Shown piece by piece: positions 23,871-28,055 of a stretch of DNA of 64,000 nt. The stretch lies in assembly GCA_026414165.1 (NCBI GenBank), contig JAOAJN010000004.1, forward strand, positions 1 to 64,000, given 5' to 3'. Source of the DNA: Candidatus Methanomethylicaceae archaeon. GTDB taxonomy: Archaea; Thermoproteota; Methanomethylicia; Methanomethylicales; Methanomethylicaceae. Both the position numbers and the translations under genes were made by a program. Position 1 is the stretch's first letter. Each line of letters starts with the position of its first letter. The notes beneath the pieces are model-generated. The model had not been told where the DNA came from. It worked only from the letters and a program-made list of their open reading frames with translations, and ran no database searches.

Positions 23871-24908
23871 CTACTTGCTCCCCCTCCTGTCTATCACGTC
23901 TAAAGTTGATGGTCCGGTTCCGATTATCGTTACTGGGATTCTTAGCCTATCTTCTATATCCTCAACAAATCTCTTTGCGCTCTCTGGGAGCCTATCGTAA
24001 TCCCTCAGACCCTTGCACTCTGGATAAACCGCATCCAGCTTTGTCAACGCGATCTGTGTCGCCGAGTTGATCTTTATAGCCCTCTCAGCCAGCTTGTAGT
24101 TGAATGGCGCGGCCCTCCTCTTCCTCCCCGTCACCGAGGCAATCTCCAGCCACCCGCGCCTTGCAGCCTCCTCCTCTGACAACTCCCCCTCGAGGGGTCC
24201 CCCTCCCACCCTTGTCACATAAGACTTGAAAACAACTATTACATCATCCACGTCTTTTGGTCCAACACCCACCTCGCTACAAACGCCCGATGCCGAGACA
24301 TCCCTGCTTGTCACAAAAGGGTAAGTCCCGTGGTAGAGCGAGAGGTAAATTCCCTGCGTTCCCTCCACGAGGACCCTTCCTCCACTTTCAATGCAATCAT
24401 GCACCTCCGCACAGACATCGGTCACGAAACCCTTGAGTTCTTCGTAATCCTTCGCGAGCTTAAGTAGACGAAGCGTCCTGTCGACCATGGCTGCCCCCAC
24501 CCCGGATCCTGTTGAGCCAACAACCTTCATCAAAAATTCATCACTCCTCTCCTTTTGGATGTGCTCTGGTCTTATTATTCCACTATTCTCATCGACACCT
24601 ATCCTGCCCAAGGTCTTTGTCATCTCCACCTCCCTCATGAACGTCTCAATGCTATAGAGGGCTCCCGCACCCACAAGTAGCCTCGTCTTAGGGTTAACGA
24701 ACGCGCAGGGCACGATCCTCAGCTTCAGCTCCTTCCCTTCGTGAACAAGAGTGTGCCCAGCGTTTATCGATCCTGTTCTAACTGCTATGTCATAATTGCC
24801 AGAATAACCCAAGTAGGCGGCTATCTTGCCTCTGGGGGGCGCCCGCTAAAGCGGTTCGCCTTTCCCCTCGTCTCCGAAGAAGCCGCCGACTAATACGGTC
24901 ACTCCCAT
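23871..24908 (-). CDS. purA: adenylosuccinate synthetase, split by a 30-nt candidate mRNA intron
   Basis: Makes adenylosuccinate from IMP, aspartate and GTP. Exon 1 (24908-24862) encodes MGVTVLVGGFFGDEGK up to the second base of the Lys codon. Exon 2 (24831-23871) resumes with A-GGC-AAG, giving GDEGKGKIAAYLGYSG, the catalytic loop of the family. Unspliced, the frame reads into a TAG after EPL. The spliced product is 335 aa, normal for archaeal PurA, and later motifs are intact (AGHT, GSTGSGVGAAMVDR, EGTQG, TSRD). ATG 24908 has GGTGAT just upstream. Alternatives are an inactivating insertion, readthrough, or an assembly error. The rest of the gene shows no decay. Confidence 0.9.
24832..24861 (-). 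other. candidate BHB-type mRNA intron in purA
   Basis: A 30-nt insert with an in-frame TAG. The fold is: helix H GGGG (24867-24864) with CCCC (24837-24834); bulge AAA (24863-24861) on the 5' side; bulge AGA (24833-24831) on the 3' side; inner helix GGCG (24860-24857) with CGCC (24841-24838); then CCGC/GCGG closing a UUUA loop. Cutting after the second base of each 3-nt bulge excises exactly 24861-24832. The outer helix normally flanking H is absent next to the bulge, so the motif is the relaxed HBh' type. Further out, GGCGGCT (24887-24881) and AGCCGCC (24822-24816) in the exons can pair. Confidence 0.72.
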
Positions 24909-24929
24909 AAAATCACCCTGAAGAGAGGT

Positions 24930-24952
24930 GAGTTTAAATATACAATATAAAC
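24930..24952. promoter_or_regulatory. divergent promoter of purA and cofE
   Basis: GTTTAAATATACAATATAAA contains TATA-like boxes on both strands. The distances are about 30-40 bp to the purA ATG (24908) and about 60 bp to the cofE TTG (25003). Confidence 0.5.
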
Positions 24953-25002
24953 CTTCTTTTCTGCTACAAGCCGATCCTCCAAAAGCAGGAGTAGAGATCC
25001 TC

Positions 25003-25764
25003 TTGCAAATATTCGGAATAAAGTTCCCCATCGTAAAGCCAGGTGACGACCTAGTATCCCTCACCATAGAGGGCTCCAAGAGATCGGGCGTCCCCATCCT
25101 CAATAAAGACATTCTGGTATTTTCCGCTAAGGTCATCGGCGTCTCTCAAGGGCGCCTTATTGAACTCTCGAGGGTCTCTCCTTCTGAGAAGGCGAGGGAG
25201 CTTGCTACCCTTTACAATCTCGATCCCTCCTTTGTGGAGGTGGTGCTGCGGGAGTCCGATGCAGTTCTGGGTGGAGTTGAGTACGCACTGCTCACCATCA
25301 AGAAGAACGTGGTAATCGCCAACGGCGGCGTTGACCAATCAAATGCCCCTCCAGGCTATGTAGCTCTTTGGCCTGAAGATCCACAAAGGTCCGCCGAAGA
25401 CCTCCGAAGGCGCTTCGGGGAGAAGGGGCTAGATGTCGGAGTACTAATAACGGACAGTAGGACACTGCCCATGAGAATGGGGAATAGCTCAGTGGCGCTG
25501 GGGGTGTCAGGCTTCAGACCCATAGAAGACCTAAGGGGTCGGAAGGACCTTTATGGACGCACTATGAGGGTCAAGCGTCTCGCTGTGGCCGACAACATTG
25601 CCTCCGCCGCCCAACTTGTCATGGGTGAGACTTCTGAGCAGACCCCGGTTGCGGTCGTGAGAGGCGCCCCTGTCCAGTACGGTGAGGGCTTCAAGATCGA
25701 AGAGGCGATTATTCCAATGGAAGAATGCCTTATAATGCACGTTCTCGGAAAGAGACCCGTCTAA
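25003..25764 (+). CDS. cofE: coenzyme F420-0:L-glutamate ligase
   Basis: A 253-aa enzyme adding glutamates to F420-0. Family features include PIVKPGDDL near the N-terminus, DILVFSAKVIGVSQGR, NGGVDQSNAPPG, LITDSRTLPMR and the C-terminal VVRGAPVQYGEG. TTG 25003 gives the usual length. An AGGAG lies 11 nt upstream, slightly far. It implies that the organism makes F420, although no F420-dependent enzyme is seen in this window. It is divergent from purA. Confidence 0.92.
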   Translation: MQIFGIKFPIVKPGDDLVSLTIEGSKRSGVPILNKDILVFSAKVIGVSQGRLIELSRVSPSEKARELATLYNLDPSFVEVVLRESDAVLGGVEYALLTIKKNVVIANGGVDQSNAPPGYVALWPEDPQRSAEDLRRRFGEKGLDVGVLITDSRTLPMRMGNSSVALGVSGFRPIEDLRGRKDLYGRTMRVKRLAVADNIASAAQLVMGETSEQTPVAVVRGAPVQYGEGFKIEEAIIPMEECLIMHVLGKRPV

Positions 25765-27840: not shown

Positions 27841-27902
27841 CGGAAATTATTTCTCAAGTCTATCAATGGAAATTTTTCCAATTTTAGAATACTCCTTTCT
27901 AC

Positions 27903-27921
27903 CCTCGCGCGAGGCATTTTT
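27903..27921 (+). terminator. hairpin with T-run after hypB
   Basis: The 12-nt perfect palindrome CCTCGCGCGAGG (27903-27914) is followed by a T5 run. It lies 62 bp past the hypB stop and is a plausible terminator. A second inverted repeat (TGGAAATTTTTCCA) lies just before it. Confidence 0.4.
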
Positions 27922-27984
27922 GACTTTGCGCCCCTCTAAAAATTCGAATATTGTGTTGCATTCTCAAAGTTTAAGGTGCATTAA

Positions 27985-28047
27985 AAATCAGAAATCAGAA
28001 ATCAGAAATCAGAAATCAGAAATCAGAAATCAGAAATCAGAAATCAG
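27985..28047 (+). repeat. heptamer tandem repeat (AAATCAG)x9
   Basis: Nine perfect copies of a 7-nt unit, 63 nt in total, with no interruption. It lies in the spacer between hypB and the carboxylase operon, upstream of a C/D-like element. Confidence 0.97.
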
Positions 28048-28055
28048 AAGATAAG

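Follow-up and report, generated by a model that had tools for sequence, protein, structure and literature searches.

We suggest that the purA gene of a Candidatus Methanomethylicaceae archaeon is interrupted by a 30-nt archaeal bulge-helix-bulge (BHB) pre-mRNA intron, a reading to which we assign a probability of about 95%. What can be observed is the anatomy of the locus, a unique excision that restores the frame, covariation, the presence and clean absence of the insert in relatives, the single-copy state of purA, and an encoded endonuclease and ligase. Cleavage and ligation in the cell, and the roles of EndA and RtcB as their agents, are inferred, as there are no RNA data.

The adenylosuccinate synthetase gene lies on the minus strand (24908-23871) of the window, by which we mean the whole 64,000-nt stretch that was analysed. 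Read directly from the sequence, it is split by 30 nt, with exon 1 ending in ...GACGAGGGGAA, an insert of AGGCGAACCGCTTTAGCGGGCGCCCCCCAG and exon 2 opening with AGGCAAGATAGCC... (Table 1). The two cut points, 24862/24861 and 24832/24831, delimit exactly 30 nt, and the in-frame TAG within them (24848-24846) falls inside the codons of the GDEGKGK loop. Excision in silico gives GDEGKGKIAAYLGY and a PurA of 335 aa, in agreement with the sequence-only reading, which had described both the loop broken by 30 nt with an in-frame TAG and its repair by removal of 24861-24832. Exon 2 alone matches the NCBIfam adenylosuccinate synthetase model NF003295 with 468.6 bits (E 9e-141), and the window genome holds a single copy of purA, with the one TAG inside it.

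Table 1. Features of the interrupted purA locus (positions in the window)
Feature	Position	Strand	Detail or basis
purA exon 1	24862..24908	-	47 nt; ATG at 24908-24906, ends GAC GAG GGG AA
Intron, 30 nt, phase 2	24832..24861	-	TAG at 24848-24846; same-position inserts in at least 28 other genomes
purA exon 2 including stop codon	23871..24831	-	NF003295, E 9e-141
Central helix 5' strand GGGG, exon-encoded	24864..24867	-	RNA fold and motif fit
Central helix 3' strand CCCC, intron-encoded	24834..24837	-	RNA fold and motif fit
5' bulge AAA	24861..24863	-	Predicted cut after second base, 24862/24861
3' bulge AGA	24831..24833	-	Predicted cut after second base, 24832/24831
Intron stem 5' arm GGCG	24857..24860	-	RNA fold and motif fit; covaries with partner arm across lineages
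Intron stem 3' arm CGCC	24838..24841	-	RNA fold and motif fit
Inner hairpin CCGC-TTTA-GCGG, overlaps TAG	24843..24854	-	Sequence and RNA fold

The minimum-energy RNA fold at this locus (-43.1 kcal/mol, z -2.5) contains the GGGG/CCCC helix with its AAA and AGA bulges, as well as the inner helices GGCG/CGCC and CCGC/GCGG; all of these had been proposed from the letters alone, and folding recovers every one of them. The mean pairing probability of the central helix is 0.96. A loose scan of the window returned 517 BHB-like 3-4-3 motifs, of which 33 join open frames, and the case is therefore carried by conservation and frame restoration, not by shape alone. When the window was scanned for BHB introns beyond that of purA, the joins obtained were all such as chance would produce. 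The purA motif stands far above this chance level because its cut restores a conserved protein and because at least 28 other genomes have the same structure at this very site.

Inserts at the purA site, shifted in position by no more than 1 nt, are present in at least 29 genomes from seven families. In every one of 29 carriers, with both phases allowed in the motif fit, there is a single excision that both restores GDEGKGK, with I, L or V as the next residue, and fits a 4-bp central helix, 3-nt bulges and an intron stem, the latter ranging from 2 to 9 bp. The 5' bulge is AAA and the 3' bulge AAA, AGA or ATA; that the cut falls behind the second base of the bulge is deduced from the restored frame in 29/29 carriers, all with a canonical 3-4-3 motif. 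Two forms occur, GAR GGG AA/A (phase 2) and GAG GGA A/A (phase 1), where the slash marks the cut, and the phase 1 form is shifted by one base, AGGG pairing with CCCU. After excision in silico a full-length PurA frame is obtained from every complete carrier sequence except that of genome G391.

The intron stems of the carriers sum to 125 bp, compared to 20 expected after shuffling. They include ten distinct arm pairs (GGC/GCC, GCC/GGC, ACC/GGU, GAC/GUC, GAU/AUC, GCU/AGC, GUA/UAC, GGG/UCC, GGU/ACC and GGU/GCC), in which 30 of 30 positions pair, compared to 18.8 expected with the arms dealt anew, and none of 20,000 such deals was as good. Covariation between stem arms of this sort is what a conserved RNA structure would be expected to show. 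With 40 nt on each side of the intron, the central helix is part of the RNAfold minimum-energy structure in 18 of the 29 carriers; for several of the shortest introns the BHB fold is not favoured by RNAfold energy, and an outer exon-exon helix with consistent conservation among the carriers could not be established.

The same motif bears on the possibility that the RNA stays uncut and the ribosome skips the insert, as in the translational bypassing known from phage T4 gene 60. In the window, the GGC codon after AAA matches the post-insert Gly codon GGC, with a hairpin between the two, but matching take-off and landing codons of this type exist in only 7/29 carriers. Bypassing, furthermore, gives no reason to expect a 4-bp helix and 3-nt bulges precisely at the joint, where 29/29 carriers have them, and we regard it as very unlikely.

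On the BHB reading, which we favour, the GGGG of the exon base-pairs with the CCCC of the intron in the folded purA transcript, and a 3-nt bulge flanks this helix on either side. Each bulge would be cleaved behind its second base by the archaeal splicing endonuclease, and the exons ligated by RtcB, to yield an mRNA for the 335-aa adenylosuccinate synthetase with its GDEGKGK loop intact. The window genome encodes both a catalytic-type EndA (TIGR00324, E 1.6e-30) and the tRNA ligase RtcB; the search for RtcB covered this genome only, while that for the splicing endonuclease covered the class. Most class genomes have two PF01974 paralogues (~105 and ~70 bits), which suggests, from their sequences, a hetero-oligomeric enzyme; it is to enzymes of this type that the splicing of cbf5 mRNA in Crenarchaeota has been linked (PMC2738675). 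Only the first EndA paralogue was found in the window genome, which is 86% complete. Its cbf5 is an uninterrupted open frame of 323 codons.

Of 398 genomes from the phylum, 28 were matched by a pattern derived from the motif and one by a reversed control pattern, and a looser pattern added G391, bringing the carriers to at least 29. Two other matches were rejected as chance: that in G003, to the looser pattern, falls in a helicase-like frame, and that in G210 is unrelated. Across 40 genomes of the class, a PF00709 search identified PurA in 31, one copy each, with the insert in 21 and none in 10. Named carriers include Candidatus Methanomethylicales MAG-3, Methanomethylicota WYZ-LMO10 and WYZ-LMO11, Methanomethylicus oleisabuli, Methanosuratincola subterraneus, Nezhaarchaeota WYZ-LMO8 and Bathyarchaeota ex4484_205. 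PurA relatives on viral contigs, checked quickly, lacked an insert of this kind. No PurA was found by PF00709 in class members G003 (92% complete, of the window's genus), G015, G016, G018, G019, G038 and G039 (94%), where the gene may be absent from the bins or replaced.

The insert thus recurs across lineages at lengths of 15 to 30 nt, and it is cleanly absent from one member of the window's own family, G006, where the site reads GAG GGG AAG GGA AAG with no remnant. The PurA tree places this genome within a group of carriers, and its site is best read as a clean loss of the intron. Intron-free orthologues are found in the same family (G006) and in sister groups, and elsewhere uninterrupted sites are the rule. 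Comparison of at least 29 genomes in this way makes the proposal that the purA pre-mRNA is spliced much stronger than it was from the sequence alone, although it remains an inference without RNA data; a literature search for culture transcriptomes brought up only unrelated papers. The carriers do not form one clade: a quick PurA tree needs seven changes, and forcing them together is rejected (p-AU 8e-99; 3e-54 without G391 and G209). G331 and G359, of the same genus as G391, lack the intron. In G391 itself (G391:C56:143600-145300), purA carries the intron and its frame breaks again after GTVTGRERT, to resume near YSNLPKEGRDFV; this second break looks like a missing stretch, be it an assembly gap, decay or something else.

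Whether the intron was gained once long ago and lost many times or gained repeatedly is open. The exon sequence of the carriers, RGGG adjoining AA, is also present at 29 of 78 uninterrupted sites, so that many intron-free purA genes already hold half of the motif. It is conceivable, although we would not favour it at present, that the GDEGKGK codons of purA are a recurrent site of BHB intron gain, with the purine-rich exon sequence GAG GGR AA providing half the motif and several gains across Thermoproteota. Were this true, introns would have entered archaeal mRNAs by a route as yet unknown, and AMP synthesis might be coupled to the capacity for splicing.

Every carrier has a stop codon or a frameshift in the catalytic loop, and G391 has a further frame break downstream, as would fit a purA pseudogene or inactive allele disabled by the insert. 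However, the frame of exon 2 is intact and, among family carriers, has 72-90% identity to that of the window, purA is present in a single copy per genome in the class, and inserts with compensatory changes are seen at this one site in seven families. The second intact purA that the sequence-only reading had named as a refutation of splicing was not found in the window genome, and we see very little room for loss of function as the explanation, even less than for bypassing. The named carriers are metagenome-assembled genomes, which might point to an assembly or sequencing artefact, but this is refuted by inserts of differing lengths with compensatory base changes, which recur in various species and in at least 29 genomes; two of these belong to the same genus and have an identical 30-nt layout, differing in the loop alone.

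The lengths of the inserts leave a remainder of 0, 1 or 2 on division by three in 9, 13 and 7 carriers, respectively, and 20/29 therefore shift the frame. All nine inserts with a length that is a multiple of three have an in-frame TAG, which would be compatible with a stop codon read as an amino acid and an insert kept as a protein loop; yet this does not help the 20 frameshifting inserts and would split the GDEGKGK loop, and we find it scarcely credible. That these nine, from several separate lineages, always have TAG and never TAA or TGA may reflect selection for termination on the unspliced message, or chance.

Other classes of intron were also considered. The 30-nt insert had no match in Rfam at E up to 1, including any catalytic intron family; a self-splicing group I or II intron was rejected on the lack of such a match and on its length of 30 nt, and a homing (mobile) intron on the absence of an endonuclease reading frame from inserts of 15-30 nt.

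A pre-mRNA intron in cbf5 of Crenarchaeota was reportedly described by Watanabe in 2002. The sequence-only reading had taken cbf5 as the established protein-coding case and had known of no purA intron. The literature searched concurs that cbf5 is the one archaeal coding gene with an established BHB intron (PMC7714728, PMC2738675), and our search of it, which left out subscription papers and bioRxiv preprints, likewise found no intron in archaeal purA or adenylosuccinate synthetase. Like the purA intron, the cbf5 intron (Yokobori 2009, PMC2738675) is a short BHB intron in a protein gene (16-44 nt) that interrupts a catalytic-residue codon, has been lost in some lineages and is too short for an endonuclease gene. 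Every purA motif is of the strict canonical 3-4-3 form, while the cbf5 motifs newly predicted in that study are mostly unconventional (PMC2738675); the genes and lineages differ, and of the two genes it is cbf5 alone for which spliced cDNA is known. Archaeal pre-tRNA introns share the BHB, the cut after the second bulge base and an overlapping size (11-175 nt, PMC2738675), but the purA intron lies in a coding mRNA without a tRNA body. The BHB intron of HVO_1309 in Haloferax volcanii likewise makes an mRNA a substrate of the splicing endonuclease, but sits in the 5' UTR, outside the coding sequence (PMC7714728). Archaeal rRNA introns are also excised through a BHB; unlike the 15-30 nt purA introns, which have no reading frame, they are often mobile and endonuclease-encoding. 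In a virus, 12-bp inserts have been reported and remain unproven (PMC2738675).

The purA intron is therefore likely to be new with respect to gene and lineages, with an inferred mechanism that is already known. It would make purA the second archaeal protein-coding gene with a BHB intron in its coding sequence, cbf5 being the only established one in the literature searched. The gene concerned encodes an essential central enzyme of purine biosynthesis that makes AMP, and the lineages include Methanomethylicota, Nezhaarchaeota and a Bathyarchaeota genome. Ordinary ORF prediction can be expected to cut the gene short in carriers. So variable a set of introns allows their gain and loss and a shift by one base to be traced, and makes it possible to test directly how the splicing endonuclease acts on an mRNA.

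Two minor observations concern the surroundings in the window. purA and cofE (coenzyme F420-0:L-glutamate ligase, ~24928-25764, plus strand) point away from each other across a very short interval (24908-24928), subject to the true start of cofE. On the plus strand at 27866-28054, a mechanically called ORF ends in KSEIRNQKSEIRNQKSEIRR, a sign of a short tandem repeat in the DNA downstream of hypB.
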